Assembly (NCBI RefSeq): GCF_020514115.1
Contig: NZ_VTKZ01000002.1
Span: forward strand, 62,001 to 126,000
Origin: Synechococcus sp. MU1642
GTDB taxonomy: Bacteria > Cyanobacteriota > Cyanobacteriia > PCC-6307 > Cyanobiaceae
Direction: 5' to 3'
Length of the DNA stretch: 64,000 nt
Part shown: positions 11,774 through 45,348 of the stretch, piece after piece
Numbering within the stretch: position 1 is the stretch's first letter
Layout: the number at the start of each line of letters is the position of its first letter
Translations under genes and position numbers: made by a program
Notes under the pieces: model-generated
The model's database searches: none
Seen by the model: only the letters and a program-made list of their open reading frames with translations
What the model was told of the DNA's origin: nothing

Positions 11774-11830
11774 TTTCTTTAGCTGAAAAGCCTTTGCTGA
11801 CTGTGCTTCTCAGGTTTTAGGGAAAGGTTG

Positions 11831-12733: not shown

Positions 12734-12756
12734 CTCATGCGCCAAGGATGGCAGCG
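12734..12756. repeat. 23-bp dispersed repeat, copy 2
   Basis: Identical to 12253-12275 over 23 bases. This copy lies 2 bases beyond the stop codon of the DUF3104 gene on the minus strand, so the same sequence that precedes one gene follows another. Confidence 0.85.
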
Positions 12757-12758
12757 GT

Positions 12759-13007
12759 TCAGACCCTTGGGCAGATGTGAGTCACAAGGTCAGCGTTGAC
12801 CCAGTTGATGACGCCGGTATCGACATCAGCAACCTGGAACAACGTTGGAACCTTGGGGTTTCTGGCACCGCCATCCACCCAAATCACATCAGCCATGCGC
12901 CAGGCACCTTCCGTGTCAGTGACGATCACGGTCATGCCTGGCTTGACATGCAGGAAAACGGGATCCGACTTGGGCGCTGCAACGGCGCTTGCATGATCAA
13001 CCGACAT
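12759..13007 (-). CDS. DUF3104 family protein
   Basis: 82 residues from ATG 13007 (a GTG at 13013 is in frame). It matches DUF3104, a family of small proteins multiplied in marine Synechococcus and Prochlorococcus: PVFLHVKPGMTVIVTD, then WRMADVIWVDGGARNPK, then PTLFQVADVDTGVINWVNAD. The fold looks like a small beta-barrel. No function is known to me. It sits in a stretch of unrelated tiny genes on the same strand, typical for accessory regions where this family is found. Confidence 0.85.
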   Translation of the reverse strand: MSVDHASAVAAPKSDPVFLHVKPGMTVIVTDTEGAWRMADVIWVDGGARNPKVPTLFQVADVDTGVINWVNADLVTHICPRV

Positions 13008-13203
13008 ACCCACAGAGCTGGTACGGCTGTATTAGTGCAGGAGTAGGTCGCAGGTCCAGGAAATGAATCGGAAGACTGCGAACAGCAGGCATCACGCCCG
13101 GGGCTGCCTAGGGCAGTCACAAGCATTCCCAATCAAATAAGCGTGCTTTTTTGGTTGCAGATTGTCGAGGTTCGTTGAAAACCAGGTCAGTCACTCAAAC
13201 TGT

Positions 13204-13242
13204 TGCTGCTGGAGGAGCAGCAAATGAAAGCGGCGAGCTGAT
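13204..13242 (+). repeat. Decayed copy of the 3' end of the gene at 11015
   Basis: 33 of 39 bases match 11736-11774, the last codons and stop of the 252-residue gene; in frame the copy would read LLLEEQQMKAAS-stop. It has no upstream coding sequence left, so it is a remnant of a duplication. Confidence 0.7.
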
Positions 13243-13254
13243 GGTTGCTTTCCC

Positions 13255-13274
13255 CATGCGCCAAAGTTGGCAGC
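13255..13274. repeat. Dispersed repeat, copy 3 (imperfect)
   Basis: CATGCGCCAAAGTTGGCAGC, two differences from copies 1 and 2 over 20 bases. It lies 13 bases after the decayed 11015-gene end and 16 bases beyond the 3' end of the 38-residue minus-strand ORF. Confidence 0.75.
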
Positions 13275-13290
13275 AGCTCAGGCTTCGATT

Positions 13291-13407
13291 TCAGTCTTCT
13301 GAACTGCGATCTCGCCGATACCGGTCAGGGCTGAAAAACCAAATGATTAACCGGGTGGTGAACCAGGCGAGCAAAATGCCCAGAACTATCGAGACAAGCG
13401 CCTCCAC
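13291..13407 (-). CDS. 38-residue single-span membrane protein
   Basis: GTG start at 13407; the product is one hydrophobic helix (about 3-25: ALVSIVLGILLAWF then TRLIIWFF) and a short, strongly basic/acidic tail (SPDRYRRDRSSED). A stop codon lies three codons upstream, so the frame is short by nature. A charged tail after a clean membrane span is good evidence for a real miniprotein. No homology is claimed. Confidence 0.5.
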   Translation of the reverse strand: MEALVSIVLGILLAWFTTRLIIWFFSPDRYRRDRSSED

Positions 13408-13491
13408 AACAATTATTCAGAGAACATCAGCCGGAGCTGGATATCCTCAATATGCCGTGCTGATCAAGGGCTGAAGAGCGACCGTTAACGG

Positions 13492-13638
13492 TCAGTCGCG
13501 AACTGGTTCGTCCTCGTCTTTGGGTGCCTCGACTTGAGGCTGGTACTTGACCACTGACTTTGACGCGAGGGAGGCCGCGAGACGCTGCAGCTGCGCTTCC
13601 CGCAGTGCGGCGGGGATGTCGAGAATTCGTTCAGTCAT
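13492..13638 (-). CDS. 48-residue hypothetical protein
   Basis: From ATG 13638: an amphipathic N-terminal helix (LDIPAALREAQLQRLAASLA) followed by a charged tail with PKDEDEPVRD. Composition and a normal ATG make it look genuine. It precedes the 38-residue ORF by 84 bases on the same strand. Function unknown. Confidence 0.5.
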   Translation of the reverse strand: MTERILDIPAALREAQLQRLAASLASKSVVKYQPQVEAPKDEDEPVRD

Positions 13639-13770
13639 CAATTGGCGTTTCCAAACACCCTCTGCAACCTATCCATTTCTCCCGCTTCTTTCGAGAAGGG
13701 GGAGATGTCTCCTTTGGGGCGATAACGAGCTCCCTTCTGCCATGCTTTCAGGGCTAGTTGAACGATGAAC

Positions 13771-13965
13771 TCAACTGCGGAAGTTGAACTGCAGCCTGTT
13801 TTTGGGCTTTTGATACTTGATGACATTCATGACCTGAAGGCCGGTATTTTCGGACTTCCTTTCTTCAGAGAGAGCTTTGAGGATCATTGAGCCACAGGAA
13901 TGCCAATCTTGATCCACTTCGATCAGTTCCTTGGCCCGTGAATAATATTCGGCAGCTTTAGCCAA
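13771..13965 (-). CDS. 64-residue hypothetical protein
   Basis: TTG start at 13965; the product has a helix rich in Ala/Tyr/Lys (AKAAEYYSRAKELIEVDQDW) and a basic end. The frame stays open upstream for about 30 more codons (residues such as LDESKSITSAISSKTSDQKS), so translation may begin earlier from an unusual codon. A TATAAT hexamer on the minus strand at 14036-14041 could be its -10 box. Base composition is AT-richer than the neighbours, which fits acquired DNA. Confidence 0.4.
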   Translation of the reverse strand: MAKAAEYYSRAKELIEVDQDWHSCGSMILKALSEERKSENTGLQVMNVIKYQKPKNRLQFNFRS

Positions 13966-14035
13966 ATGATTAGACTTTTGATCCGAGGTTTTTGATGATA
14001 TAGCTGATGTGATGGACTTTGACTCGTCTAGTTGA

Positions 14036-14041
14036 ATTATA
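14036..14041 (-). promoter_or_regulatory. Consensus -10 box (TATAAT)
   Basis: On the minus strand TGTATAAT reads toward the 64-residue ORF, about 70 bases upstream of its TTG. No good -35 is present at normal spacing: the nearest TTGAAA is only 9 bases away. Confidence 0.35.
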
Positions 14042-14042
14042 C

Positions 14043-14073
14043 AGCATGCTTTTCAAAAAAAGCATGCTTTTGG
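14043..14073. terminator. AGCATGCTTTT inverted/direct repeat hairpin
   Basis: AGCATGCTTTT, a 4-base spacer (CAAA), AAAAGCATGCT and then TTT form an 11-bp stem. Because AAAAGCATGCTTTT is itself palindromic the two halves are also direct repeats. It lies 8 bases after the end of the 94-residue minus-strand gene and probably ends its transcript; it can work in either direction. Confidence 0.55.
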
Positions 14074-14080
14074 GCGGTCT

Positions 14081-14365
14081 CTAGCGGCGCGCTTTTCTGT
14101 ACAGAGTTTGATTCACGAGCGGAAAGGCATAGGGCATTGGGTTGATTTCATTCTTGATAGATGAAAAGCAGGCCGCGGAGCCATCCGAATAGCCATCTTC
14201 GAGAATCCATTCTTTGGCTTGTTGAAGGGTTAATCCATATCGCATTCGAGCTTCAAGGTTGAATGCCGCCTCATAGCTTTGGCAGGCACCAGTTTGCGCT
14301 TTCATGCTTTGACCAAAAAGCAGCAGCATCAGACCAGCGTTACCAGCAAAAGCATTCCTAAACAA
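14081..14365 (-). CDS. Small exported hypothetical protein (94 aa)
   Basis: TTG start at 14365. Residues 1-24 form a signal-peptide-like segment (GLMLLLFGQSMKAQT, cleavage perhaps after A-x-A/KAQ). The mature part has two Cys (GACQSY, AACFSS), spaced as in small periplasmic proteins with one disulfide, and RMRYGLTLQQAKEWILEDG. Start choice is uncertain (an ATG at the core of the signal peptide is in frame). Followed by the hairpin at 14043. Confidence 0.55.
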   Translation of the reverse strand: MFRNAFAGNAGLMLLLFGQSMKAQTGACQSYEAAFNLEARMRYGLTLQQAKEWILEDGYSDGSAACFSSIKNEINPMPYAFPLVNQTLYRKARR

Positions 14366-14518
14366 GGGGACTGAAGGGATAAAAAAAGATCACTATGTCT
14401 ACGGCTGCGTGATCAGGGAGAAGGTCTCACTCCGTAATCCCAGCCCAGTACATATTGCCTTGACGATCGGATTTACCAGAAGAGGTGCCTTCAAATCTCA
14501 ACGTTTTGAATCTTTAAC

Positions 14519-15569: not shown

Positions 15570-18500
15570 ATGCCGCTCCGTTCCCTGGTGACCAAGTTGC
15601 AGGAAACTGCACTCACCGGTGAGCTTGATGAGCGCTCAAGCCGCACTGAACGTCTGTTGATGCGCGGAGCTGGTCGTTGCAGCCGCGCTCTGGTGGCCAG
15701 TGCCCTCTCTCAACGACGGGACGCACCTCTGCTGGTTGTAGTGCCGACGCTTGAGGAAGCAGGGCGCTGGACGGCGCTGTTGGAATTAATGGGGTGGGGC
15801 CAGGCAAGCCTGTACCCCACCAGTGAAGGCTCTCCCTATGAACCCTTCGATCCCACAAGTGAAATCACCTGGGGGCAGCTTCAGATTCTGAGTGACCTGT
15901 TGGGGGAACCCAACGCGGCGTCCTGGGCCATCGTGGCCACGGAACGTTGTTTGCAGCCCCATCTCCCCCCGCCGGATGTTCTGAAAACAAAAACGCGCAC
16001 CTTGCGCAAAGGGGATGAGGTTGATCTAGAGGCACTGGGCGAGACGCTGGCCCAACTTGGCTACGAGCGGGTCACCACCATTGAGCAGGAGGGGAGCTGG
16101 AGCCGTCGCGGCGACATCGTCGACATCTTCCCGGTGAGCAGTGAGCTGCCTGTTCGACTCGAATTCTTCGGAGAGGAGCTCGACAAGCTGCGGGAATTCG
16201 ATCCCGCCAGCCAACGCTCACTGGACCCCGTCGATGCGCTTCGACTCACACCAACAGGGTTTGGGCCTCTGATTGCGGACCAGCTCAGAGAGACAATGCC
16301 CGATGGACTGGAGCAACTGCTCGGTTCTGAGGGCACAGAGCAGCTTTTGAACGGCGGGACACCGGAGGGCATGCGCCGGCTGATGGGTCTCGCCTGGGGG
16401 CAACCCGCTTCACTGCTCGACTACCTGCCGGACACCACAACAGTGGTGATCGATGAGCGACGTCAGGGCCTAGCCCACGGACAACAGTGGCTCAGCCATG
16501 TGGAGGAACATCACCACGACATGGCTGCTGAGGCGGGCCTGGACGAGGGAGATCGTGATCGGGTCTGGCCAGCGGTTCTGCACCGTGAGATTGAAGCCGC
16601 CTATGCCCTGACGGAGGTCTTCCATGGCTTTGACATGGCAGAACTGCTGGAAGTTGACCAGCACCCCAACAGCTTCGACCTCGCCAGCCGCCCTGTTGCG
16701 GCCTACCCCAACCAATTCGGAAAACTCGGGGAACTGATCAAGGGATTTCAAACTGAACGCACGGCGGTTTGGTTGGTGTCTGCACAACCCAGCCGAGCGG
16801 TTGCGCTGCTGGAGGAGCACGACTGCGTTAGTCGGTTTGTGCCGAACGCGGGAGACAGCAATGCCATTTCCCGTCTGATTGAGCAGAACACCCCCGTCGC
16901 CCTGAAGGTAAGGGGCACGGCCGAACTTGAGGGTTTGCAGCTGCCGGCTTGGCGGATTGCTCTGGTCACCGACCGTGAATTCTTTGGCCAGCAGAGCCTC
17001 AGTTCCAGTGGCTATGTGCGCCGTCGTCGCAAGGCCGCCAGCCGCACGGTGGATCCCAACAAGATGCGCCCGGGCGATTTCGTGGTGCATCGGAACCATG
17101 GCATCGGCCGCTTCAAAGCCATGGAAAAACTCGCGATGTCCGGCGACATCCGCGACTACCTCGTGGTGCAGTACGCAGATGGAATCCTTCGGGTTGCCGC
17201 CGATCAACTCGGCAGCCTTGGGCGTTATCGGGCCACGAGTGAAACACCCCCGCAGCTCAACCGCATGGGTGGCACGGCCTGGAACAAGGCCAAGGAACGG
17301 GCCAAGAAGGCGGTTCGCAAGGTTGCCCTTGATCTTGTGAAGCTGTACGCAGAACGCCAACAGGCCGCAGGCTTTGCCTTCCCCACCGATGGCCCCTGGC
17401 AGGTGGAAATGGAGGAGTCGTTCCCCTATGACCCGACGCCGGATCAACTGAAGGCCACGGCCGACGTGAAACGGGACATGGAACGGCAGGAGCCGATGGA
17501 CCGACTGGTGTGCGGGGACGTTGGCTTCGGCAAGACCGAAGTTGCGATCCGCGCCATCTTCAAAGCCATCACCGCTGGAAAACAGGTGGCGATGCTGGCC
17601 CCAACCACGGTGTTGGCTCAGCAGCACTGGCGCACGCTCTCGGAACGCTTCGCGCCATATCCGATCAAGGTGGCTCTGCTGAATCGTTTCCGGACGGCGT
17701 CGGAACGCAAATCCATTCTCGATGGCCTGAAGCAGGGAATCATCGACGCCGTGGTGGGAACCCACCAGCTGCTCAGCAAAGGAGCGTCGTTCCAAGAGCT
17801 TGGTCTTTTGGTGGTGGATGAAGAACAGCGCTTCGGTGTGAACCAGAAGGAAAAGATCAAAGTGCTGCGGAAGGACGTCGACGTGCTGACCCTGTCGGCA
17901 ACGCCGATTCCCAGAACGCTCTACATGAGCCTTTCGGGGGTGCGGGAGATGAGCCTGATCACCACACCACCGCCACTGCGCCGTCCAATCAAGACGCATC
18001 TGGCTTCTCTGGATCCGGAGGCGGTGCGCAGCGCCATCCGCCAGGAACTGGATCGTGGGGGCCAGGTCTTTTATGTGGTTCCCCGGGTGGAAGGAATCGA
18101 GGAGGTGGCAGCAGGCCTACGGGAAATGCTGCCAGGCCTGAAGCTTTTGGTGGCTCACGGTCAGATGGCCGAGGGCGAACTGGAGAACGCCATGGTGGCG
18201 TTCAACGCCGGTGAAGCCGACGTGATGCTCTGCACCACGATTGTGGAAAGCGGCCTGGACATTCCTCGTGTCAACACGATCCTGATTGAGGACGCCCACC
18301 GCTTTGGCCTGGCCCAGCTGTACCAATTGCGGGGACGGGTCGGTCGCAGTGGGATTCAGGCCCATGCCTGGTTGTTCTATCCGGGCAACGCATCGCTGAG
18401 CGACACCGCTCGTCAGCGGCTGCGCGCCATTCAGGAGTTCGCCCAACTGGGCAGTGGATACCAGCTCGCCATGCGGGATATGGAGATCCGTGGGGTCGGA

Positions 18501-19148
18501 AATCTCCTCGGCGTGCAGCAGAGCGGCCAGATGGAAACCATCGGCTTTGACCTCTACATGGAAATGCTGCAGGAATCCCTGGCGGAAATTCAGGGTCAAG
18601 ACATCCCCAGCGTTGAAGACACCCAGGTGGACCTCCCCGTCACGGCCTTCGTGCCTGCGGACTGGATCACTGATCCGGATGAGAAGATCGCGGCCTACCG
18701 GGCTGCCTCCGACTGCCTCACCGCCGAGGCCCTGGTGGAGCTGGCTGCGGGTTGGGCCGATCGCTACGGAGCGCTGCCCGCTGCCGTGGTGTCGCTTCTG
18801 CAGCTGATGGAGCTCAAACTGCTGGCGAAGCGGTGCGGCTTCTCCAGGATCAAACCGGAAAAGCCCAACATCGTGCTCGAAACTCCCATGGAGGAACCGG
18901 CGTTCCGTTTGCTGCGCCAGGGATTGCCCCAGCATCTGCATGGTCGTTTGGTGTATCAGGCCGGCAGCGGCATCCAGCACAAGGTGATGGCCCGCGGTCT
19001 TGGTGTTCTCCCCATGGAGAAGCAACTGGAACAGCTGATGGAATGGCTGCGTCTGATGGCAGCCCAGATTCCCGATGCCGATGGCAAAACGGAGGCACAG
19101 CGGCAGGAGGAACTGCGTGCCAAGAATGCAGAGGTGGTTCAGGTCTGA
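15570..19148 (+). CDS. mfd: Transcription-repair coupling factor Mfd
   Basis: 1192 residues from ATG 15570; an upstream TTG at 15537 adds 11 residues that do not look conserved. Mfd removes RNA polymerase stalled at lesions and recruits UvrA. Domains in order: UvrB-like N-terminal module (about 1-340), CarD-like RNA polymerase interaction domain beginning DFVVHRNHGIGRFKAM (about 505-570), superfamily 2 helicase with Walker A GDVGFGKT (about 649-656) and DEEQRFG, RecG-like translocation motif region LYQLRGRVGRS, and the C-terminal TRCF domain (about 1010-1110). Complete. Confidence 0.97.
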   Translation: MPLRSLVTKLQETALTGELDERSSRTERLLMRGAGRCSRALVASALSQRRDAPLLVVVPTLEEAGRWTALLELMGWGQASLYPTSEGSPYEPFDPTSEITWGQLQILSDLLGEPNAASWAIVATERCLQPHLPPPDVLKTKTRTLRKGDEVDLEALGETLAQLGYERVTTIEQEGSWSRRGDIVDIFPVSSELPVRLEFFGEELDKLREFDPASQRSLDPVDALRLTPTGFGPLIADQLRETMPDGLEQLLGSEGTEQLLNGGTPEGMRRLMGLAWGQPASLLDYLPDTTTVVIDERRQGLAHGQQWLSHVEEHHHDMAAEAGLDEGDRDRVWPAVLHREIEAAYALTEVFHGFDMAELLEVDQHPNSFDLASRPVAAYPNQFGKLGELIKGFQTERTAVWLVSAQPSRAVALLEEHDCVSRFVPNAGDSNAISRLIEQNTPVALKVRGTAELEGLQLPAWRIALVTDREFFGQQSLSSSGYVRRRRKAASRTVDPNKMRPGDFVVHRNHGIGRFKAMEKLAMSGDIRDYLVVQYADGILRVAADQLGSLGRYRATSETPPQLNRMGGTAWNKAKERAKKAVRKVALDLVKLYAERQQAAGFAFPTDGPWQVEMEESFPYDPTPDQLKATADVKRDMERQEPMDRLVCGDVGFGKTEVAIRAIFKAITAGKQVAMLAPTTVLAQQHWRTLSERFAPYPIKVALLNRFRTASERKSILDGLKQGIIDAVVGTHQLLSKGASFQELGLLVVDEEQRFGVNQKEKIKVLRKDVDVLTLSATPIPRTLYMSLSGVREMSLITTPPPLRRPIKTHLASLDPEAVRSAIRQELDRGGQVFYVVPRVEGIEEVAAGLREMLPGLKLLVAHGQMAEGELENAMVAFNAGEADVMLCTTIVESGLDIPRVNTILIEDAHRFGLAQLYQLRGRVGRSGIQAHAWLFYPGNASLSDTARQRLRAIQEFAQLGSGYQLAMRDMEIRGVGNLLGVQQSGQMETIGFDLYMEMLQESLAEIQGQDIPSVEDTQVDLPVTAFVPADWITDPDEKIAAYRAASDCLTAEALVELAAGWADRYGALPAAVVSLLQLMELKLLAKRCGFSRIKPEKPNIVLETPMEEPAFRLLRQGLPQHLHGRLVYQAGSGIQHKVMARGLGVLPMEKQLEQLMEWLRLMAAQIPDADGKTEAQRQEELRAKNAEVVQV

Positions 19149-19226
19149 AGCCTGAACCCAATTCTGAGAAAAACGTTACCAACCACGCAATTCTTCGTTA
19201 CATTGGTACCAGCAAAATCCGTTGAC

Positions 19227-19394
19227 ATGGGTGAATTCGTCGAGATCGGTGCTGGTGGCGTCTCTCTGGAACTGATCAGCGGCGTTTTCTGTGCAACCGC
19301 GCTTGGTGTGTATGCCCTGTTCCAGCCCGGCGCTTCAGACGATGACGACTCCAACGGTGGTGGCGGCGGCGGACTGATGCAGCCGATCTCCTGA
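19227..19394 (+). CDS. 55-residue single-span protein with acidic/Gly-rich tail
   Basis: ATG 19227 starts MGEFVEIGAGGVSLELISG; one hydrophobic helix follows (VFCATALGVYALFQ), then a DDDDSNGGGGGG tail. The 78-base gap after mfd may hold its own promoter. Small one-helix proteins with this layout are common among accessory subunits of thylakoid complexes, but nothing here proves that role. The frame also extends upstream to TTG 19203. Confidence 0.65.
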   Translation: MGEFVEIGAGGVSLELISGVFCATALGVYALFQPGASDDDDSNGGGGGGLMQPIS

Positions 19395-19395
19395 G

Positions 19396-20745
19396 CTACT
19401 GCAACGCGTAGCTGAGGTTGGCTAGGCCGGGTTGATAGGTCTTGCCTGCCTGAATTTTCTTCAATTGGTTCATGAGGGTCCCCTCAGCTGTCCTGTACTG
19501 ACTGTCCTTCTGGGTACCCAGGTCTTCAACCGAGAAGTTCTTGATCTCCTGCTTCGACATCGCCGCTTCGATGTCCGGTTGGATTCCGTTCTTGTGAATA
19601 TCGGTTCCCTTGGGTGTGAGGTACTTCGCGATGGTGACCGTCAGACCGGATCCATCGGCCAATCCGCGAACGGCCTGGACAAGCCCTTTGCCGAAGGTCT
19701 TCTGTCCAACGAGTTGGGCACGGGAATTGTCCTGAAGTGCCCCTGAAAGAATTTCGCTGGCACTGGCGGATCCCTGATCAATCAGAACGACCAGAGGTTT
19801 ATCGGTGATTGCACTACCCGTGGCGCGCCTCACATCGCGGATTCCTGCGCGGGTTCGGGTGCTAACGATGGTGCCCTCGTTGAGCCATTGGCGGGCGATG
19901 TCCACACTGGCCTCAAGCAAGCCGCCGGGATTGCTGCGTAGATCCAGCACGTAGCCCTCAGCAGCCTGTGATTCCAGATCCTTGATGGCCGCACGCATCT
20001 CACGCGTGGCGTTGGCATTGAATTGCTTGAGACGGATGTAGCCCACCTTGCGGCCATTGGGCGCCGTGTTGAGCATCGCCTTCACGGCATGAATCTCAAT
20101 GCGCGCCCGTTTCAAGGGCACATCCAGCACCTGACTCTGGCGCCTGAGTCCCAGCACCACATCGGTGCCTTCCGGACCACGGATCAACTTGACGGCGTCC
20201 TCGGTGGTCATGCCTTTGGTCGAGGCACCATCGATGGAAACGATCACATCCTTGGGCTGAACGCCCGCACGGGATGCAGGGGTGCCCTCAATCGGGGAGA
20301 CAACAATCAGCTCTTTCGTATCTTTGTCGAGACTGAGCTGAATCCCCACGCCCATCAACTCACCGGAGGTGTCGATCTGCATTTCCTTGAACTCCTTCGG
20401 ATCAAGGAAACGCGTGTAAGGGTCATCGAGGCTGACCAGCATGCCCCGGATCGCCTCGTAGGACTCGGCGCTGCCTCCATAAGACTTGCTCAGCAGATTG
20501 CTCCGCAACTGGCGCCACGTTCTTTCGTCGTAGGAGCCCGTGGAATCGAGGTAATCGCGATAAACGATCTGCCAGACCTGATCAATCACCTCCTTGGGGC
20601 TGTCGTGTATCGATCCCCCGGATGCCGATGGAAGGGAAAGGCCTGGTGAGCTGATGCCCATGGCGGTGACCACACCGCCGACACCGAGCATCAGCAGCAA
20701 CGGAGTCGAACGAACCAAAGAACGCAGGCGCTGACTCCGAACCAT
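19396..20745 (-). CDS. Carboxyl-terminal processing protease (S41 family)
   Basis: 449 residues. N-terminal hydrophobic segment (LLLMLGVGGVVTAMGISSPG) for export to lumen or periplasm, a PDZ domain at about 115-200 (GVGIQLSLDK, PASRAGVQPKDVIVSIDG), and the S41 catalytic core with the Ser in QGSASASEILSGAL and the Lys in KTFGKGLVQ. Cyanobacterial CtpA of this family trims the D1 precursor of photosystem II; several paralogues exist, so I do not assign the letter. It runs convergent to the small gene at 19227, one base apart. Confidence 0.9.
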   Translation of the reverse strand: MVRSQRLRSLVRSTPLLLMLGVGGVVTAMGISSPGLSLPSASGGSIHDSPKEVIDQVWQIVYRDYLDSTGSYDERTWRQLRSNLLSKSYGGSAESYEAIRGMLVSLDDPYTRFLDPKEFKEMQIDTSGELMGVGIQLSLDKDTKELIVVSPIEGTPASRAGVQPKDVIVSIDGASTKGMTTEDAVKLIRGPEGTDVVLGLRRQSQVLDVPLKRARIEIHAVKAMLNTAPNGRKVGYIRLKQFNANATREMRAAIKDLESQAAEGYVLDLRSNPGGLLEASVDIARQWLNEGTIVSTRTRAGIRDVRRATGSAITDKPLVVLIDQGSASASEILSGALQDNSRAQLVGQKTFGKGLVQAVRGLADGSGLTVTIAKYLTPKGTDIHKNGIQPDIEAAMSKQEIKNFSVEDLGTQKDSQYRTAEGTLMNQLKKIQAGKTYQPGLANLSYALQ

Positions 20746-20779
20746 GGCCCTTCAGGACTGATTCTTCAGACTAACGAGA

Positions 20780-21985
20780 TCAGGCGGGCTCCACCCAGCG
20801 ACCGTCCTCTTTGATCAACTGGATCAGAGCTTCAACGCCCTCAGCTTCAGGCACCTTGCGGATTTCATCACGACCGCGATACAGAGCAATGGTTCCAGGC
20901 CCTTTGCCCACGTAGCCGTAATCAGCATCGGCCATCTCTCCGGGCCCATTGACGATGCATCCCATCACAGCAACGTCAAGACCCTGGAGATGCTTGGTGG
21001 CATCCCGCACCTTATGCAGCACCTCTTCGAGATTGAACAGGGTGCGACCGCAGCTGGGGCAGGCGACGTACTCGACCATGGTCTTGCGCAGACCCAGGGA
21101 TTGAAGAATCGAGTAGCAGACGGGGATTTCCTTTTCAGGAGCCTCCGTCAATGAGACCCGGAGGGTGTCTCCCAATCCATCGGCCAACAGGGTGGCAATG
21201 CCTGCGGTGCTCTTGATCCGGCCGTAATCACCGTCACCGGCTTCGGTCACGCCCAGGTGCAGAGGGTAATTGAAGCCTTCCTTGTCCATGGTGTCCGCCA
21301 TCAGGCGATAGGCCGCAAGCATCACCGGCGCCCGCGAGGCCTTCATCGAAATCACGATGTTGTGGAAATCAAGTTCGTGACAGATCCGCACAAATTCCAT
21401 CGCTGATTCGACCATCCCCTCAGGGGTGTCGCCATAGGTGAACAGCATCCGCTCCGCCAGGGAGCCATGGTTCACACCAATTCGCAGCGCCTTGTTCTGA
21501 TCCCGCAGCAGGGTCACCAATGGCTCGAACGTCTCACGGATGCGCTGGCCGATGGCGGCAAATTCTTCTTTGCTGAACTCCTGCCGATCGGGATCGGGTT
21601 TGTCGAAAACAAATAGCCCGGGATTGATCCGAACTTTGTCGACATGCTTGGCGACTTCAAGGGCGATTTTGATGCCGTTGTGGTGGACATCCGCCACCAG
21701 GGGAACCATGCAGCCCTGCTCTCGAAGTGCAGCACGAATTTTGGCCATAGCCTTCGCATGGCCAATCGAAGGCGTCGTCACACGAACGATTTCACAGCCA
21801 GCTTCCACAAGCCGAAGGATTCCTGCGACGGACCCATCTATATCGAGGGTGTCCTCGTTGATCATCGACTGAACAACCACAGGATGCTCACTGCCGATCG
21901 GCACATCACCCACCATCACGGTGCGGGTCACACGTCGATGGATCTTGGTGTCGTAACGCCGATCCAGGGCAGTCATGAAGCTCAA
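20780..21985 (-). CDS. ispG: 4-hydroxy-3-methylbut-2-enyl diphosphate synthase IspG (GcpE)
   Basis: 401 residues. IspG is the [4Fe-4S] enzyme of the MEP isoprenoid pathway; cyanobacterial forms use ferredoxin. Seen: the TIM-barrel start [42 protein letters not shown], and the C-terminal cluster ligands in [10 protein letters not shown] and [10 protein letters not shown]. Its start overlaps by 4 bases the stop of the uracil-DNA glycosylase gene, so the two are co-transcribed. Confidence 0.96.
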
Positions 21986-22560
21986 TTAGAAGCAACCCAA
22001 GGCTCGCACAGGCGCTGTTGGACTGCGGCCAGGTCCTGTTGTGTCAGATCCAGGGGCGCGCCGGCTGCTTTGGAGGGATTGCGCAGCAGATAAGAGGGGT
22101 GAAAAATCGGCATCACCGCCCGTCCATTCCAGCTCTGCCACTGCCCACGAAGCTGGGTCATGCCCCCCTTGATGCCAAGGATGGTCTCCACAGCGGTGGC
22201 TCCCATCAGCACGATCACCTTGGGGTCAACGGCCTCCAGTTGAAGGTCAAGCCAGGCCCGACAGGCGGCCAACTCAACTTTTTTCGGCCGTCGGTTGTTG
22301 GGAGGTCGGCATTTGATCGCGTTGCAGATGTAGAGGTCATGCTCGGGATCCAGATCCACATCCCGCAGCAGTTGATCGAGGGCACGTCCTGAACGGCCGA
22401 CAAACGGGACGCCCTGAGCATCTTCCTGAGCCCCTGGTGCTTCACCGATCAGCATCAGATCCGCTTTGGGATTGCCGCGGCTGATTACAACGGTCTGGCG
22501 CGAACTGGAGAGGTCACAGGTAGTGCAAGAACTGCAGGCCTCCAGGCTGGAGAGAGTCAT
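21982..22560 (-). CDS. Type 4/5-like uracil-DNA glycosylase (Fe-S)
   Basis: 192 residues. Motif 1 [20 protein letters not shown] and the HPSYLLR motif 2 are intact. The Fe-S cluster ligands are present: C-x2-C-x2-C near the start (CSSCTTC) and Cys in [15 protein letters not shown]. It removes uracil from DNA. Overlaps both neighbours by 4 bases (VOC gene upstream, ispG downstream). Confidence 0.92.
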
Positions 22561-22958
22561 GACATCGGAGCAACAGAGGCAAGGGGAGCCAGGAGCAACA
22601 GGGGATTGCCCTCCGGATCTTGGATCCAGGCCTCAGCACCAAAGGGCTCAAGCCGCGCCTCCTCGAGGAGCGATCCACCACGCTTCAGGGCGTTACTGAG
22701 CAGCCTTTGAAGTTCAGGCAGGGGTTCCTGCGATGGGGAGAGCCTCAAACAGGGCGCCAGCGCTCGCCCTCGGGCTGGAAAAGAGCGCCGGCGTGAAGGC
22801 CTGTAGATCTCCAGCTGGGTGCCATCGCTGAATTGAACGATGTAGTGGTGCTCCGCCAGCCCAGGCTTCAACGTGGCTTGAAACAGCTCGCTGTAGAACG
22901 TCGCCAACCTGGCGCTGTCTTCCGCAGCCAAGACCCAGCTGATCTGTATCGCATTCAT
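22557..22958 (-). CDS. VOC (glyoxalase/bleomycin resistance-like) family protein
   Basis: 133 residues from ATG 22958, 22 residues shorter than the open frame because MNAIQISWVLAAEDSARLA is the usual first strand-helix of a VOC domain. Later VQFSDGTQLEIYRPS and DPEGNPLLLLAP, the typical last strand. A single VOC module; partner or substrate unknown. First gene of a VOC-UDG-ispG operon; the aspC promoter is in the 86-base divergent gap. Confidence 0.8.
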   Translation of the reverse strand: MNAIQISWVLAAEDSARLATFYSELFQATLKPGLAEHHYIVQFSDGTQLEIYRPSRRRSFPARGRALAPCLRLSPSQEPLPELQRLLSNALKRGGSLLEEARLEPFGAEAWIQDPEGNPLLLLAPLASVAPMS

Positions 22959-23044
22959 GGGCGCTGAGAAATCAAGGTTGTCTGCGACACCATCTGCGGC
23001 AGGATGATGACGTTTTAAACGCACCGCGGGGAGGTGCGTTACCG

Positions 23045-24223
23045 ATGCCGCGCCCGCCAGAACTTTCCGACCGGGCTGTCGCCCTCAAACCGTCGCTGAC
23101 GCTGGAGATCAGCGCCAAGGCCAAAGCACTGCGCGACAGCGGTAGGGACATCTGCAGCCTCAGTGCCGGTGAGCCGGACTTTGCGACGCCTGCATTCATC
23201 GTTGAAGCGGCCCAGCGTGCTCTGGGATCCGGCTTCACCCGCTACGGCCCCGCCGCGGGGGACCCCGATCTGCGTGCTGCTCTGGCCCACAAACTCAGCG
23301 TCGAAAACGGGATTCCAACCCAGCCCGAGCAGGTGCTGGTCACCAACGGTGGCAAGCAAGCCATCTACAACCTGTTCCAGGTGCTGCTCAATCCCGGCGA
23401 CGAAGTTCTGTTGCCGGCGCCCTACTGGCTGAGCTATCCCGAGATGGCGGCCTTGGCCGGGGCGAGCACCAGGATCATCCCCACCAAAGCGGAGGAAAGC
23501 TTCCGTCTCGACCTCGATCTGCTGGAGCAGCAGATCACCCCACGCAGCCGACTGCTGGTGATCAATTCCCCTGGCAACCCCAGCGGCCAGGTGATGACAC
23601 GGGCCGAACTGGAGGCCCTGGCCGCGCTGGTGGCCCGTCACCCCCAGCTGATAGTGATGACCGATGAGATCTATGAATATCTCCTTGCCGATGGTCAGCA
23701 GCACTGCAGCTTTGCGGCCATTGCCGAAGAGATCCGCTCGCGCTGCTTCACCGTGAACGGCTTTGCCAAAGGCTGGGCGATGACCGGCTGGCGCCTCGGT
23801 TATCTGGCTGGAGATGCTGCCGTGATCAAGGCTGCTTCAGCCCTTCAGAGCCAGAGCACCAGCAATGTGTGCAGCTTTGCTCAACGGGGCGCACTGGCGG
23901 CGATCGAAGCGCCTCGAGATTGCGTGCGCGAGATGGCCATCAGCTACAACCGCCGCCGAACTCTGCTCACTGAAGGGCTTCAGGCTCTGGAGGGCATCAC
24001 CCTGATGCCTCCTCAAGGGGCCTTCTACGCCTTCCCCCGCCTGCCGGACGGCATGCCCGATTCGATGGAGTTCTGCCGGCAAGCCCTGGAACAGGAAGGC
24101 CTGGCCATGGTTCCGGGTCTGGCCTTCGGCGATGACCGCTGCATTCGACTCTCCTGTGCCGTAGCTGATGAGACGATCAACGATGGACTGATGCGACTGA
24201 AGCGGCTGCTTCGTTCCTTCTGA
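23045..24223 (+). CDS. aspC: Class I pyridoxal-phosphate aminotransferase (aspartate aminotransferase-like)
   Basis: 392 residues. Family I gamma aminotransferase features: SAGEPDF near residue 40, GGKQAIYNLFQ, PGNPSGQVM, DEIYEYLL, and the PLP lysine in NGFAKGWAMTGWRLGY (about 240-255); the C-terminal Arg is in RLSCAVADE. Probably interconverts aspartate and 2-oxoglutarate with glutamate and oxaloacetate, though class I enzymes vary in acceptor range. 27 bases before phnD. Confidence 0.92.
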   Translation: MPRPPELSDRAVALKPSLTLEISAKAKALRDSGRDICSLSAGEPDFATPAFIVEAAQRALGSGFTRYGPAAGDPDLRAALAHKLSVENGIPTQPEQVLVTNGGKQAIYNLFQVLLNPGDEVLLPAPYWLSYPEMAALAGASTRIIPTKAEESFRLDLDLLEQQITPRSRLLVINSPGNPSGQVMTRAELEALAALVARHPQLIVMTDEIYEYLLADGQQHCSFAAIAEEIRSRCFTVNGFAKGWAMTGWRLGYLAGDAAVIKAASALQSQSTSNVCSFAQRGALAAIEAPRDCVREMAISYNRRRTLLTEGLQALEGITLMPPQGAFYAFPRLPDGMPDSMEFCRQALEQEGLAMVPGLAFGDDRCIRLSCAVADETINDGLMRLKRLLRSF

Positions 24224-24250
24224 TCCGATCTCATCATTCTCTTTTTCTGA

Positions 24251-25174
24251 ATGTCTGTACGAGAACGCAGGGCCGTGGTGGCCACCGGTTTGATTGCCGG
24301 GCTCGCACTCACGGCCAGTGTTTCCAGTTGCGGCGCACCCCAGAACGACGCCAAACAGGCCGTTCTGCAGATCGGTGCCATCCCCGACCAGAACCCCGAG
24401 AAACTCAATCGCCTCTACGGCACACTCTCTGCGGAACTCAGCGAAAAGCTGGATGTTCCCGTGCGGTATGCGCCGGTCAGCAATTACGCGGCGGCAGTGA
24501 GTGCCTTCCGCACCGGCAGCGTTGATCTGGTCTGGTTCGGTGGACTCACCGGTGTGCAGGCCCGGCTGCAGACGCCTGGAGCCCGGGTGCTGGCGCAACG
24601 GGACATCGATGCAGAGTTCACCAGTGTGTTCATCGCCAATGGCGCCAGTGGTTTGCGCCCCTTCACCAGTGCCAACCAACTGGTTGAGCTGAAGGGACGC
24701 CGACTGACCTTCGGTTCGGAGAGTTCCACCTCCGGCCGCCTGATGCCCCAGTTCTTCATGGGGGAAAACGGCGTGAAACCTGAGGATCTGGCGGGGGGCG
24801 GCCCTGGCTTCAGCGGAAGCCACGACGCCACTATTGCGGTGGTGCAGAGCGGTGCCTTCGAGGTGGGCGCCTTGAACGAGCAGGTCTGGCGCGGCAATGT
24901 GGCGGACGGCCGCGTGGATCCCGGCAAGGTGTCGGTGATCTGGAGGACGCCGCCCTACGTGGACTACCACTGGGTTGTACGACCCGGTCTGGATGAGCGC
25001 TTTGGCGAAGGTTTCACCAACAAGCTGCAGAGCGCGTTGCTGGACCTTTCGGCAGACACAGATGACGGCGCCACGATTCTTGAGTTGTTCGGTGCCGAAC
25101 GCTTCATCCCCGCCAAGAATGAGGACTACGTGATGATCGAAACGGTGGGCCGCCAACTCGGAAAGATCCGTTGA
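24251..25174 (+). CDS. phnD: Phosphonate/phosphite ABC transporter substrate-binding lipoprotein
   Basis: 307 residues. A signal sequence ends in a lipobox-like SVSSC with Cys27. The body is a PhnD/PtxB type II periplasmic binding protein: GAIPDQNPEKLNRLYG, YAAAVSAFRTGSVDLVWFGG, FGSESSTSGRLMPQFF, GSHDATIAVVQSGAFEVGAL. Ligand could be a phosphonate, phosphite or methylphosphonate; the sequence alone does not settle it. First of an overlapping phnD-phnC-phnE-hydrolase cassette. Confidence 0.93.
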   Translation: MSVRERRAVVATGLIAGLALTASVSSCGAPQNDAKQAVLQIGAIPDQNPEKLNRLYGTLSAELSEKLDVPVRYAPVSNYAAAVSAFRTGSVDLVWFGGLTGVQARLQTPGARVLAQRDIDAEFTSVFIANGASGLRPFTSANQLVELKGRRLTFGSESSTSGRLMPQFFMGENGVKPEDLAGGGPGFSGSHDATIAVVQSGAFEVGALNEQVWRGNVADGRVDPGKVSVIWRTPPYVDYHWVVRPGLDERFGEGFTNKLQSALLDLSADTDDGATILELFGAERFIPAKNEDYVMIETVGRQLGKIR

Positions 25175-25875
25175 CGGCGCTGCTGGAGCTGCACCAGGTC
25201 TGCCTGGGGCAACGGCTCCAACCGATCACCCTCATCCTTCGTGCGGACCAGCGTGTGGTTTTGCTCGGTGCCAGTGGCGCCGGCAAAACCACGTTGCTAA
25301 AGCTCTGCAACGGGGCATTAAGCCCCGATTCAGGATCCGTGCACTGGTGTGGTCGCCCCCATCAGCAGTTGTGCCGCCGGCAACGGCGCCAAATCGGCAC
25401 GCTCTGGCAGGACCTGCGCCTGGTGGAGGAACTGAGTGTGATCCAGAACATCAACAGCGGTGCCCTGGGACGCCATGGGCTGCTCTGGGCGATTCGGAAC
25501 CTGCTGGGTCCCCTGGACCCAAACACCTGCCTGGAGCTGATGCACCAGGTGAAACTGGAAGCAGATCTGCTTGAGCAGCCCGTGCGTGAGCTCTCCGGAG
25601 GGCAGCGCCAACGGGTGGCTCTGGGCCGTCTGTTGCATCAACGGCCTGAACTCGTGCTGGCGGACGAACCCCTCTCCGCCCTTGATCCCAGCCTCGCCGA
25701 AGACGTTCTCAACACCCTGCTTCTCTTGCCGGGCTGTCTGATCAGCCTGCATCGGCCGGATCTGATACACCGTTTCGATCGGGTTCTGGGGCTCCGTGAT
25801 GGTGCCCTTGTGATCGATGCAGCTCCAGACACCATTCATCGGGATCAGCTGGAATGGCTCTACGCATCGACCTGA
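25171..25875 (+). CDS. phnC: Phosphonate/phosphite ABC transporter ATPase
   Basis: 234 residues from TTG 25171, overlapping the phnD stop by 4 bases. Walker A GASGAGKTT, Q-loop region TLWQDLRLV, signature LSGGQRQRV and Walker B LVLADEPLSALDP. Slightly shorter than enteric PhnC. Overlaps phnE by 22 bases. Confidence 0.92.
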   Translation: MTALLELHQVCLGQRLQPITLILRADQRVVLLGASGAGKTTLLKLCNGALSPDSGSVHWCGRPHQQLCRRQRRQIGTLWQDLRLVEELSVIQNINSGALGRHGLLWAIRNLLGPLDPNTCLELMHQVKLEADLLEQPVRELSGGQRQRVALGRLLHQRPELVLADEPLSALDPSLAEDVLNTLLLLPGCLISLHRPDLIHRFDRVLGLRDGALVIDAAPDTIHRDQLEWLYAST

Positions 25876-27386
25876 AGCCAGCCCTGCCGTTGATCCCATT
25901 GCTGCCGGGGCTCAGCCTGCTCGGCATTCTTGTGGTGATGTTGCGCGATGGTCACGGCGGCGGACTTTCAGTTCTTCAACAGTTCGCGGCTGGGGCCGTG
26001 CAGCCCTCCATCGACCCCATCGTTTTGGGCAGCTTGCTCAACGGGCTCCAGATCACCCTGGTGATCGCCGTGATGTCCTGGGGCATCAGCAGTGTTCTCG
26101 GCGTGGGTCTCGGACTCCTGAGCTCAAGCACCTTCTGGGAAATCCAGGCGGGCGTGCGTTGGCCTGCCGTGATCTTGCGCCGTTGGCTGGCGCCCCTGCG
26201 CGCTGTGCATGAACTGGTCTGGGGGCTGATGCTGCTGCAGGTGTTCGGGCTGAATGGCTGGGTTGCGATCTGCGCCATCGCGATTCCTTACACGGTTCTG
26301 ATGGCGCGGGTGATCGCCGATCAGGTGGATTGCCACGTTTCACCGGCCATTCCCGTCCTCAAGGGAGCCGGCGCCACGCCATGGGCCGTGATGCTCACCG
26401 GGCTGGTCCCACCGCTGGCAGAGCCGATCAGCGACCACATCGGCCACCGCCTCGATTGCGCACTTCGTTCAGCCTTGATTCTGGGCGTTTTCGGCCTCGG
26501 AGGACTGGGGACAGACCTCAGCCTCAGCCTGCGCTCGCTTCAATTTCAGGAGCTGTGGAGTGGGCTTTGGATGCTGGCCATCGCCATGGTGGTGCTCGAC
26601 CGACTTCTGCGAACGCTGCGCAGCTGGTCACGCATGCTGATTCTTCCCGTGGCCATGGCCAGCCCCTGGGCTGCCCTTGGCTGGGGAACACAGCTGGATC
26701 TGCAGCTGGCCTGGCCAGTGGCTGAGTGGTCGATGGTTGTCGGCAACCTCATCGACGGATCCCAGGGATTCAATACTGCCCTTGAGATCTCCTGGCCCGG
26801 GGTGATTGGAGCCACGGTGTGGATCACCCTGATCGGCGGTTGTGTTGCCACCGGGCTTCCACCGCTGTTGCTGCTGGTTTGGCCCAGCCAGGCCAGCCTG
26901 CGGCTGCAGGGAGTCGTTTGGGGGGCGTTGCGACTCATCCCGGCCCCTCTCACCGCACTCCTGCTGCTGATGCTGGCCAAACCAAGCTTGAGCCTGGCGG
27001 GGCTGGCCCTGGGGCTGCACCACGGCGGTGTGATGGGTCGGGTGCTGATCGACGAGATCCGCAGCACGGGATTGGGTTCCGCCCAGACCATGAAGGCCTG
27101 CGGCGCCCCCAACCGGGTGAGCTGGCTTTACGGCCCCCTGGCGGATGTGAGTCGCGCTTACCTCACCTATGCGACCTACCGATTGGATGTGATCCTGCGC
27201 GACACCGCGATCATCGGCATGGTGGGGGGAGCTGGTCTGGGCTGGCAGCTGATGGAGGCCCTCAGCTCGTTTCATTGGTGGTTGGTGCTCTGGATCGTGC
27301 TCATTTCCGCAGTGCTCACACTGCTGGGTGAGAGCCTGGGGGAACGACTTCAGGGGAGCTGGAACAGCCGGGCCATGGCCTTATGA
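25854..27386 (+). CDS. phnE: Phosphonate/phosphite ABC permease, two-domain fusion
   Basis: 510 residues, nearly twice a usual PhnE. It holds two tandem permease modules: the first about 1-250 with the EAA-like loop near LKGAGATPWAVMLTGLVPPL and LGVFGLGGLG; the second about 260-505 with MKACGAPNRVSWLYGPLADV and IIGMVGGAGLGWQL. A fusion gives both halves of the channel in one chain, as in some other marine bacteria. ATG overlaps phnC; the stop overlaps the next ATG. Confidence 0.9.
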   Translation: MALRIDLKPALPLIPLLPGLSLLGILVVMLRDGHGGGLSVLQQFAAGAVQPSIDPIVLGSLLNGLQITLVIAVMSWGISSVLGVGLGLLSSSTFWEIQAGVRWPAVILRRWLAPLRAVHELVWGLMLLQVFGLNGWVAICAIAIPYTVLMARVIADQVDCHVSPAIPVLKGAGATPWAVMLTGLVPPLAEPISDHIGHRLDCALRSALILGVFGLGGLGTDLSLSLRSLQFQELWSGLWMLAIAMVVLDRLLRTLRSWSRMLILPVAMASPWAALGWGTQLDLQLAWPVAEWSMVVGNLIDGSQGFNTALEISWPGVIGATVWITLIGGCVATGLPPLLLLVWPSQASLRLQGVVWGALRLIPAPLTALLLLMLAKPSLSLAGLALGLHHGGVMGRVLIDEIRSTGLGSAQTMKACGAPNRVSWLYGPLADVSRAYLTYATYRLDVILRDTAIIGMVGGAGLGWQLMEALSSFHWWLVLWIVLISAVLTLLGESLGERLQGSWNSRAMAL

Positions 27387-28069
27387 GCGGTGCGAACGAC
27401 GCCCCCCGTCAGCTGATCGTGCTCGGGGACAGTGGCGTACATGGTTGGGGTGACCGTGAATCGGGTGGCTGGTGCCAGCGGCTGCGCCTGCGCTGGATGA
27501 ACCTACCCAGCGCTCCAGTGGTGTACCCCCTTGGCATCCGCGGGGATGGCCTGGAACGCGTGGCCGCCCGCTGGCGCAGCGAGTGGAGCTGCCGCGGCGA
27601 ACTGCGGCGCCAAACACCGGGCGGACTTCTACTCAGTATCGGGCTGAATGACACCGCCCGCGTTGGTCGGTTCGACGGCAGACCCCAACTGGATGTGGAG
27701 GCCTTTTCGTTCGGCCTGGGACAACTTCTCAATGAGATGACCCAGGAGGTGCAGGTGTTTGTGCTGGGCCTCACTGCGGTGGATGAGCACGTGATGCCCT
27801 TTGCCGGCTGCCTCTGGTACAGCAACAGCCAGATCGCGGCAACGGAGGCCGTGATGGCCGAACAGTGCCGTGAGGCGGATGTTCCCTTCCTATCCATGCA
27901 TCAGGAGATGCAGGAGGAGCCCGACTGGTTGACCTGGATGGAACCCGATGGGATCCATCTCAATGCCGACGGCCACCGCTGGCTCGACCAGCGCTTGGGT
28001 CAATGGGCGCCTCTGCAGGAGTGGGCCGGACTCGCTGCGTTTAACACATCAACACCTATCAGCATGTAA
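27383..28069 (+). CDS. SGNH/GDSL-type hydrolase
   Basis: 228 residues. Catalytic blocks in order: GDSGVHGWG (block I, nucleophile Ser), GIRGDGL (block II), SIGLNDTAR (block III, GxND) and DGIHLNADGHRW (block V, D-x-x-H). The ATG overlaps the phnE stop (ATGA), so it is translated with the transporter. Family members cleave esters; here it may act on an ester-linked phosphonate or phospho-ester, which is inference from position. No signal peptide, so it is cytoplasmic. Confidence 0.85.
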   Translation: MSGANDAPRQLIVLGDSGVHGWGDRESGGWCQRLRLRWMNLPSAPVVYPLGIRGDGLERVAARWRSEWSCRGELRRQTPGGLLLSIGLNDTARVGRFDGRPQLDVEAFSFGLGQLLNEMTQEVQVFVLGLTAVDEHVMPFAGCLWYSNSQIAATEAVMAEQCREADVPFLSMHQEMQEEPDWLTWMEPDGIHLNADGHRWLDQRLGQWAPLQEWAGLAAFNTSTPISM

Positions 28070-28123
28070 ACGAGACCCGCAGCGGCGACTAATGTGTGGC
28101 TCTCCTGACATTGGTGATCGGAC

Positions 28124-28291
28124 TTGGGACCTGACCGCTCTGCACAACGCGCTGCCGGCCACCCCCCTGCCCAGCGCAAAACCACGCTCAAGTGGGACGA
28201 AAACGGTGAACTCACAGCCCTGGATATGGCACGCATCGTTGACCGCTTGACCCAGCCGGAACTGCAGCGCTGCGATCTCGATCCCTCGTGA
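28124..28291 (+). CDS. 55-residue hypothetical protein
   Basis: TTG 28124 opens a frame with convincing protein features: basic N-terminus, then TLKWDENGELTALDMARIVD and LTQPELQRCDLDPS. The start is weak and no ATG is in frame upstream. It ends 4 bases before the convergent PCP_red gene. Function unknown. Confidence 0.45.
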   Translation: MGPDRSAQRAAGHPPAQRKTTLKWDENGELTALDMARIVDRLTQPELQRCDLDPS

Positions 28292-28294
28292 GGA

Positions 28295-28459
28295 TCAGCT
28301 CGGGGCCATGGCCTGCTTGGCGGATTTGTAGAAATCCAGGTCGATGTCGGAATGTCCGTCTGAATCCGCCATCGCCTCAACGCGTTTACGAACAGCAGGC
28401 CGTACGAAGAACGGAACATCTTTCTTGAGTGCTGCCAGTGCTTCTGGTTGCCAGTCCAT
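28295..28459 (-). CDS. PCP_red-domain miniprotein
   Basis: 54 residues from ATG 28459 (frame open to 28516). The whole protein is one PCP_red domain, the helical module found at the C-terminus of ChlB of dark-operative protochlorophyllide reductase: W-x-x-E-A...LKKDVPFFVRPAVRKRVEAMA...DIDLDFYKSAKQ. As a free-standing unit its job is not known to me. Divergent to the sigma remnant. Confidence 0.75.
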   Translation of the reverse strand: MDWQPEALAALKKDVPFFVRPAVRKRVEAMADSDGHSDIDLDFYKSAKQAMAPS

Positions 28460-28542
28460 CAATCCAATACCGTTGCACCCATGATCCGGCACGAAAGTGC
28501 CGATCTGCGGCACCAAAGGGCCAACCGCTTCGGGGCTGAGGG

Positions 28543-29296
28543 TTGAACCGTTGGATCAGTTGCACTGATCCCTTGATTTCTCAACGTCACCTGCGCCAGG
28601 AGTCCCGGCGTGGACTGCCGCCCTGCATTGCACGACGCAATCAGCAGGCTCTCAAGCACCTGGGCCTGGCCCACTGCGCGGCCCGTCGCCAACAGCAACG
28701 CGGGCCTGAAGAGTTCGACGACCTGCTGCAGGAGTCCAGGGTTGGATTGATCCGTGGCCTTGAACGGTTTGATCAACAACGAGGCCTCCGCCCCAGCAGC
28801 TATCTGCTCTCGCGGGCCAACGGCCAAATCCTCCACTACCGCCGGGATCGATCACGCACCATTCGGATTCCCTGGCGGTTGCGTGATCTTTACGCAGCAG
28901 GGATGAAGATCCACATGAACGCAATCAGAACCAGCTGCCGAGCCTCAGCGATCACGAGCTTGCAGCCAAACTCTCTGTGAAACCGGAACGCTGGGCCGCC
29001 GCCGTGCAGAGCCATGGGGCCAGCCAGGTCGCTCACCTGTTTGCCAGTCCTGGAGATCCAGCAAGCTCATGTGCGGAGGATGAACACCTGGACTAGTTGA
29101 GGACCGTGCTGCCGCAGGTGGAGGGCAAGGCCGCATGGTGCTGCAGGGCCACTTCATCGAAGGCCAGATCCTTGAGGCTCTGGCTCAGGCTCTGAATTGC
29201 AGCCGCTCTTCCCTGCACCTTTATCTCAATGAGGGGCTGGGACTCTCACGGCAATGGGCCCACCGAGATGGTCTGAAACCACTCCGTACCAGCTGA
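28543..29296 (+). pseudogene. Group 3-like sigma-70 factor, inactivated
   Basis: Sigma region 2 is clear in the first frame (to about 28910): LGLAHCAARRQQQRGPEEFD, DLLQESRVGLIRGLERFD, LRPSSYLLSRANGQILHY, then SRTIRIPWRLRDLYAAGMKI. A one-base loss at about 28911-28914 moves region 3 into another frame (NQLPSLSDHELAAKLSVKPE). That frame meets TAG at 29094-29096, continues LRTVLPQVEG, and a second indel near 29130 moves region 4 (MVLQGHFIEGQILEALAQAL, SRSSLHLYLNEGLGLSRQW) to a third frame ending at 29296. Three separate lesions argue for a true pseudogene rather than a base error. Confidence 0.85.
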
Positions 29297-30043
29297 TTAA
29301 AGCGCCATCAGCAGCATCGCTAAAACTGCGGCCAACAGGGTCTGGAGAGCATTGACCAGCTCGTTGCTCAACCAGGCCACGCGGTCCTGCACCAGAGCGC
29401 CGAGAAGGCTTTCACCAAGGGTCGCTAACAGACCAACCATCATCACCAGCACAGCCACAGGCCACGAGGGAATGAGCTGCAGAGAAAGCATCACCAGGGT
29501 CATGGCGATGCTGCCGGCGGCACTGGCCAGGGTTCCCTCAAAGCTGATGGCTCCTTCAGTACCTGGTGGAACCACCCGAAGGCTGGTGATCAAGACCGTG
29601 GTGCGACCGAAACGTTTGCCGATTTCACTGCCGAAGGTGTCGGCCAACTTGGCGGCGAAACTCGCGGCAAAGCCAACCAACAACAGTTCATGGGGCTCGA
29701 CACCGGCACCCACCAGCAGTGCCAGGAAGGCTCCAACAGCAGCGGAACCCCAGACATTTTCAGGGCCGCGCTGACCACCGCGGGCTTCGGCAAGGCCGCG
29801 GGTTTGCTTGTTTTGAAAGCCGATCTTGGTGACCAGACTTCCAAGGCAGAGGTAGGCGACCACAGCCAACCAGCCCGACCAACCCAAACAACCCCAAAGA
29901 ATCGTGCCCAAAGCAGCCGCGTGGACCCAACCCTTCCGGGTGAGAACGGTTGTCCGCTGCGCCAGGGCAATCAAAACCGTGTTCACCAGCAGCGCCTGAA
30001 TCCAGAGTGCGGACATCACACCGTGTTGCAGTGCTCTAAGCAT
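29297..30043 (-). CDS. DUF92 membrane protein (VTE6-like, possible phytyl-phosphate kinase)
   Basis: 248 residues with about six spans. DUF92/TIGR00297 features: LTRKGWVHAAALGTILWGCLG, GSLVTKIG, AAKLADTFGSEIGKRFG, TSLRVVPPGTEGAISFEGTL. In Arabidopsis VTE6 and a Synechocystis homologue of this family make phytyl diphosphate from phytyl phosphate for tocopherol and phylloquinone; the same role here is inference. Its stop abuts the sigma pseudogene end. Confidence 0.85.
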   Translation of the reverse strand: MLRALQHGVMSALWIQALLVNTVLIALAQRTTVLTRKGWVHAAALGTILWGCLGWSGWLAVVAYLCLGSLVTKIGFQNKQTRGLAEARGGQRGPENVWGSAAVGAFLALLVGAGVEPHELLLVGFAASFAAKLADTFGSEIGKRFGRTTVLITSLRVVPPGTEGAISFEGTLASAAGSIAMTLVMLSLQLIPSWPVAVLVMMVGLLATLGESLLGALVQDRVAWLSNELVNALQTLLAAVLAMLLMAL

Positions 30044-45066: not shown

Positions 45067-45348
45067 GTGGGGAATCACGCTGACGTTCACATCAAGATCC
45101 TTTTAGCCAAAGTCTTTAGCTCGCCTCTGCATTTTCTGACAAAAGTCATCCATCGACGATTGATTCAGAAAATCTTCGAGTGTATGCAAAGCAAGATCAA
45201 GCCTTACTTTGTTATTGACGACTATCACATTGCTGTACACCAGTCAAACCCTCGACCAAGATCTTGGGTTGCTTTGGGCAATAGCTACACGTTTCAATTA
45301 GCCTGCCTTAAAGCGACCAAACACGGCATCCATTCTGCCGAAAGGTAA
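45067..45348 (+). CDS. Possible orphan protein (93 aa)
   Basis: GTG start. Fairly normal composition (VHIKILLAKVFSSPLHFLTK, IKPYFVIDDYHIAVH) and AT-richer than neighbours. No family. Overlaps the DUF389 gene end convergently by 41 bases, which is uncommon; could be spurious. Confidence 0.3.
   Translation: MGNHADVHIKILLAKVFSSPLHFLTKVIHRRLIQKIFECMQSKIKPYFVIDDYHIAVHQSNPRPRSWVALGNSYTFQLACLKATKHGIHSAER

Follow-up and report, generated by a model that had tools for sequence, protein, structure and literature searches.

A SigF-like sigma factor pseudogene of mosaic origin in a marine Synechococcus genome and its repeated loss alongside pilus and competence genes

Two cyanobacterial sigma factors provide the nearest described systems for the locus reported here. 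In Synechocystis, SigF is required for pili (PMC2758279), and in Synechococcus elongatus SigF2 is required for transformation and for the dark induction of dprA (PMC7125226). By our assessment, the S. elongatus SigF2 is probably of the SigJ type. Loss of the pilus apparatus has been published for Synechococcus clades II and III, where pilA, pilB, pilC, pilQ, comEA, and comEC were scored (PMC7994388). The available part of that account makes no mention of sigma factor loss, and describes marine Synechococcus as not known for DNA uptake, though many strains retain the genes (PMC7994388). A survey of cyanobacterial sigma factors observed extreme reduction in Prochlorococcus and in one Synechococcus strain (PMC11119718). 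Repeated loss of the sigma gene treated below was not reported in the full text searched, a body of literature that leaves most subscription journals outside its coverage.

The window, that is, the whole stretch of 64,000 nucleotides that was analyzed, spans C20:62001-126000 and is part of a 251-kb contig; the genome comprises 2.12 Mb in 22 contigs and was scored as 99.98% complete. A SigF-like group 3 sigma factor pseudogene lies at window positions 28543 to 29296 on the plus strand and corresponds to 252 codons in the intact orthologue. Its divergent neighbor is a 73-amino-acid open reading frame (ORF) with a PCP_red domain (28295 to 28516, minus strand; Pfam PF08369, 50.6 bits), and its convergent neighbor is a gene for a DUF92 membrane protein (29297 to 30043, minus strand; Pfam PF01940, 198.7 bits). 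The DUF92 gene was present in all 19 near-complete genomes and served as the synteny anchor; the sigma remnant adjoins the same DUF92 gene as the intact orthologue does.

Region 2 was identified in the window at 50.6 bits with PF04542 (Pfam cut-off of 24), far above chance, while region 4 alone is weak, reaching 13 bits in an intact relative and falling under the Pfam cut-off. A profile of 15 intact relatives aligned to solved sigma factors over positions 18 to 237, which indicates that the intact family has regions 2 to 4; TIGR02937 gave 63.4 bits (cut-off of 42.9), and the intact family was positive for regions 3 and 4. The PF04542 match, the profile match over 18 to 237, and the identity that continues across the frames agree with an earlier note on this DNA, which had recognized regions 2, 3, and 4 spread over three frames. 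The best named model for the intact orthologue of genome G010 was the cyanobacterial SigF (NF005644), at 93.4 bits and below the curated cut-off of 261 bits. SigF and the window sigma factor are alike in regions 2 to 4 and in length (258 and 252, respectively), whereas SigF-like proteins of other cyanobacterial families score approximately 400 bits with the SigF model and the window family 93 bits. We computed a tree that sampled SigF-like proteins of other cyanobacterial families, with no named S. elongatus sequence among them. Grouping with SigF of other cyanobacteria was not seen in this tree, in which the window family formed a separate long branch (support of 100/100), the long branches making its placement uncertain. 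The S. elongatus SigF2 and the window sigma factor resemble each other in being a second SigF-like factor in addition to another one, but in the same long-branched tree neither SigF-like clade of other cyanobacteria included the marine family. Placing the window family with SigF or with SigF2/SigJ was tried, and the tree did not decide. On its sequence, the window sigma factor is best termed SigF-like rather than SigF or SigF2.

Aligned as a protein to the DNA with frameshifts allowed, the intact G010 orthologue matched over all 252 codons and revealed exactly three lesions. Homology with G010 proceeds through three frames (28543 to 28914, 28917 to 29132, and 29135 to 29296), with 91% identity up to the first lesion, then 72% and 72%. 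The first lesion is a one-base loss at 28911 to 28916 (codons 124 to 125, with the gap in the DNA alignment after 28913), the second is an in-frame TAG at codon 185 (29094 to 29096), and the third is another one-base loss at 29127 to 29134 (codons 197 to 198, gap after 29132), all on the plus strand. Codon 185 encodes a Trp that is invariant among intact relatives. The longest surviving open frame, from the ORF list and the alignment, runs from 28543 to 28980 on the plus strand and encodes 145 amino acids, consisting of 124 native residues and an out-of-frame tail. The sigma locus carries three disabling lesions, and intact orthologues stand at the syntenic position in relatives, a comparison that marks it as a pseudogene. 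What it encodes is a region 2 fragment of at most 145 amino acids, and the gene is taken to be dead. The earlier note had called a group-3-like sigma factor gene decayed by three lesions, and the alignments to G010 confirmed both the call and, to within a few bases, the lesion positions; the objection that no intact orthologue might exist fell away, as intact syntenic ones were found in genomes of the same genus. The change from Trp to TAG at codon 185 also occurs in G039 (L048), which is kin of G003 and not of G010 or G020, so that this stop is either a repeated mutation or one shared by recombination.

The remnant is a mosaic. Left of position 28877 the window has approximately 97% identity to G048 and 89% to G020, and right of it approximately 88% and 95%, with a change-point at 28877/28878, in codon 112 of the sigma gene (log-likelihood gain of 177; two-unit interval 28877 to 28879) and 35 bases before the first lesion. 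Identity profiles and change-points delimit an imported tract of approximately 13.1 kb (15780 to 28877), nearest to G043 and G048 and set in a G020-like backbone, whose left end lies near 15.78 kb and whose right end lies inside the sigma gene. Since G020-like sequence flanks the tract on both sides and the divergence between G010 and G020 is even along the sigma gene, the window genome is likely the recipient. The 5′ part of the remnant (28543 to 28877, plus strand; codons 1 to 112, region 2) was exchanged through recombination for that of a G048/G043-like lineage. It is free of lesions, and across codons 1 to 109 three changes separate it from G048, one of them synonymous and two non-synonymous. 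The resident 3′ part (28878 to 29296, plus strand) contains regions 3 and 4 and all three lesions. By pairwise counts for each gene region, pN/pS over codons 110 to 251 is 0.53 versus G010 and 0.65 versus G020, compared with 0.37 for the intact pair G010-G020; over the whole gene, lineage-specific changes number 6 synonymous and 19 non-synonymous (stop included), against 10 and 8 in G010. The resident part thus shows relaxed selection, of modest effect. Because the 5′ half is imported, the time of the loss cannot be read from how well region 2 is preserved, and the recent loss proposed in the earlier note was not supported in that form: the clean 5′ half is borrowed, and the resident 3′ part carries both the lesions and excess amino-acid changes. 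A more general caution follows: where recombination supplies one half of a dead gene, it can make the pseudogene seem younger than it is.

The genus has lost the window sigma gene several times over, by disabling lesions or by deletion. The 19 near-complete same-genus genomes divide into 11 with an intact gene, 6 with a broken one (the window genome, G043, G022, G039, G006, and G015), and 2 without it. The lesions of the broken copies differ: TAG at codon 117 in G043, TGA at codon 150 in G022, TAA at codon 198 in G015, two frameshifts plus TAG at codon 185 in G039, and a frameshift at codon 132 in G006. The less complete genomes G014 and G017 carry six and eight lesions, respectively, which reach into region 2. 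G001 has a deletion scar in which the first approximately 30 bases of the gene are fused to the last approximately 25, with the neighbors in place, and in G008 no sigma trace was detectable next to the same DUF92 neighbor. The scan of named genomes yielded three marine loci only.

A second SigF-like gene of the window genome, outside the window at C20:29643-30341 (L099), has TAA at codons 75, 161, and 181 and no frameshift. It is also broken in G001, G003, G007, G014, G020, G022, G039, G043, and, apparently, G045. The two marine SigF-like genes are alike in being often broken across the genus, and the second is tied more strongly to pilus and competence loss; it forms a separate clade on a long branch of its own (100/100) and scores 135.8 bits with the SigF model, above the window family.

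The pilus and competence genes of the window genome are more decayed than its sigma gene. Only residues 1 to 156 of pilB (with a stop) and 340 to 419 of pilC remain of the pilB-pilT-pilC cluster, comEC is missing its middle part and contains a stop, dprA is in fragments in three frames, and the PilQ secretin was not found in this genome. This is the same kind of pil/com loss as described for clades II and III (PMC7994388). We tested co-loss over the 19 near-complete genomes with hand-called gene states, scoring a frame as broken if it had stops, a frame change, a clearly short length, or was not found; PilM was left out since its model (PF11104) is too weak in the genus to score presence. With kinship ignored, pilB, pilC, pilQ, comEC, and dprA were all intact in 6 of 11 genomes with an intact window sigma gene versus 0 of 8 without (one-sided Fisher P = 0.017). 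Put the other way, and again ignoring kinship, the window sigma gene was broken or absent in none of the 6 genomes with all five machinery genes intact versus 8 of the 13 others. For the second SigF-like gene, the set was intact in 6 of 9 genomes with it and 0 of 10 without (P = 0.003, kinship ignored). Single-gene P values for the window sigma gene were 0.015 for pilB, 0.055 for pilC, 0.11 for pilQ, 0.25 for comEC, and 0.34 for dprA. Exceptions were found in both directions: G020 and G045 have an intact window sigma gene without a working pilus set, and G022 and G015 have a broken one with most machinery intact, G022 being without comEC and G015 without its main pilB cluster. As machinery was lost and the sigma gene kept in G020 and G045, the targets were probably lost before the regulator.

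The co-loss, together with the roles of SigF and SigF2 elsewhere, makes pilus and competence genes the likeliest targets, and we infer that the intact protein would guide RNA polymerase to genes for type IV pili, DNA uptake, or both. The favored explanation, which we hold to be reasonably probable, is a dead regulator, likeliest of pilus/competence genes, that decays with or after its targets. A lineage that abandons pili and competence would leave the regulator without targets; selection on it would then stop, allowing decay through point mutation or deletion; and recombination, probably once decay was under way, would have joined a clean 5′ part to a dead 3′ part. The idea in the earlier note that the loss tells which regulon was dropped therefore stands only so far as the co-loss and the SigF/SigF2 roles point to type IV pilus and competence genes.

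The sigma factor may instead have served other genes, such as those of a stress, cold, or night response, and have succumbed to drift and genome streamlining, the link to pili and competence being coincidence or shared ancestry. The association reaches only P = 0.017 with kinship uncorrected and weakens for single genes, the exceptions run both ways, and a shared promoter was not found, all of which leave room for this account. The promoter consensus of Synechocystis SigF is TAGGC...GGTAA. This sequence was not matched in relatives in the vicinity of their sigma and pilus/competence genes, and the aligned upstream regions of pilB, comEC, and dprA had no common SigF-like motif. In the opposite direction, stops are confined to the two SigF-like genes, with the group 1/2 sigma genes of 34 genus genomes stop-free among the matches listed and the six other sigma genes of the window genome open; both SigF-like genes are lost together with the machinery; and the nearest studied relatives govern pili and competence. 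We therefore regard a different regulon as rather unlikely, though it is the most serious competitor to a lost pilus/competence regulator. Upstream of dprA, a conserved palindrome, AGTAC-N4-GTACT or near it, was observed approximately 60 bases before the coding region in L211, L212, L213, and L214 (G009, G005, G048, and G010), which we take to resemble the cyanobacterial LexA (SOS) box.

A broader and more tentative proposal is possible, although we would not call it probable: a lineage-specific pair of SigF-like factors may jointly run the pilus/competence program of marine Synechococcus, with the module lost repeatedly, machinery first and regulators later. Were this true, strains could be typed as pilus/competence-positive or -negative by whether two short regulator genes are intact. 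A regulator pair decaying with the machinery points to sigma factors for testing control of pili and competence, and may offer a simple marker for strains that abandoned the trait. A dead regulator is ordinary in a streamlining genome; what raises this one somewhat above that is its recurrent co-loss and the recombination breakpoint within the gene.

The draft state of the assembly (22 contigs) and the abrupt switch in kinship 35 bases ahead of the first lesion could also reflect error, either as spurious one-base losses or as a contig that fuses two strains inside the gene. We consider this improbable, since the TAG lesion is not an indel, the resident part has surplus amino-acid changes, and other genomes, sequenced independently, also have broken copies of this gene; the pilus/competence genes and second SigF-like gene of the window genome are moreover wrecked in several ways, and one backbone lies on both flanks of a tract that is 96 to 99%, not 100%, identical to its donor kin. 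Slightly less credible still is that the 145-amino-acid region 2 fragment is produced and useful, for example, as an RNA polymerase competitor. Codons 1 to 109 show almost no amino-acid change, and all lesions of the six lightly broken copies lie past region 2, from codon 110 onward. However, the clean 5′ part is an import with just three differences from its G048 relative, region 2 itself is hit in G014 and G017, the gene is absent in G001 and G008, and slower evolution of region 2 is also seen between intact copies; a selected, truncated region 2 protein was abandoned because the unchanged codons 1 to 109 are imported DNA. Programmed frameshifting or stop read-through yielding a full-length protein would suit the homology that is unbroken over three frames, but was rejected as having next to no probability because lesion kind and place vary from genome to genome, all three stop codons are seen, and some copies are deleted.

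Elsewhere in the window, seeming stops in several other genes were traced to differing start sites or to antisense frames. The stretch from 11774 to 14518 (approximately 2.7 kb) contains no ORF of 110 amino acids and has a poor match or none in the relatives compared; a decayed short ORF lies within it at 14084 to 14464. Additional kinship switches were observed near 21.5 to 22.0 kb and 42.0 to 44.5 kb. A further pseudogene, membrane-protein-like and of 365 codons, is located at 45067 to 46125 on the minus strand, with two frames and three stops; this gene is intact in G010 and G043 and frameshifted in G020.
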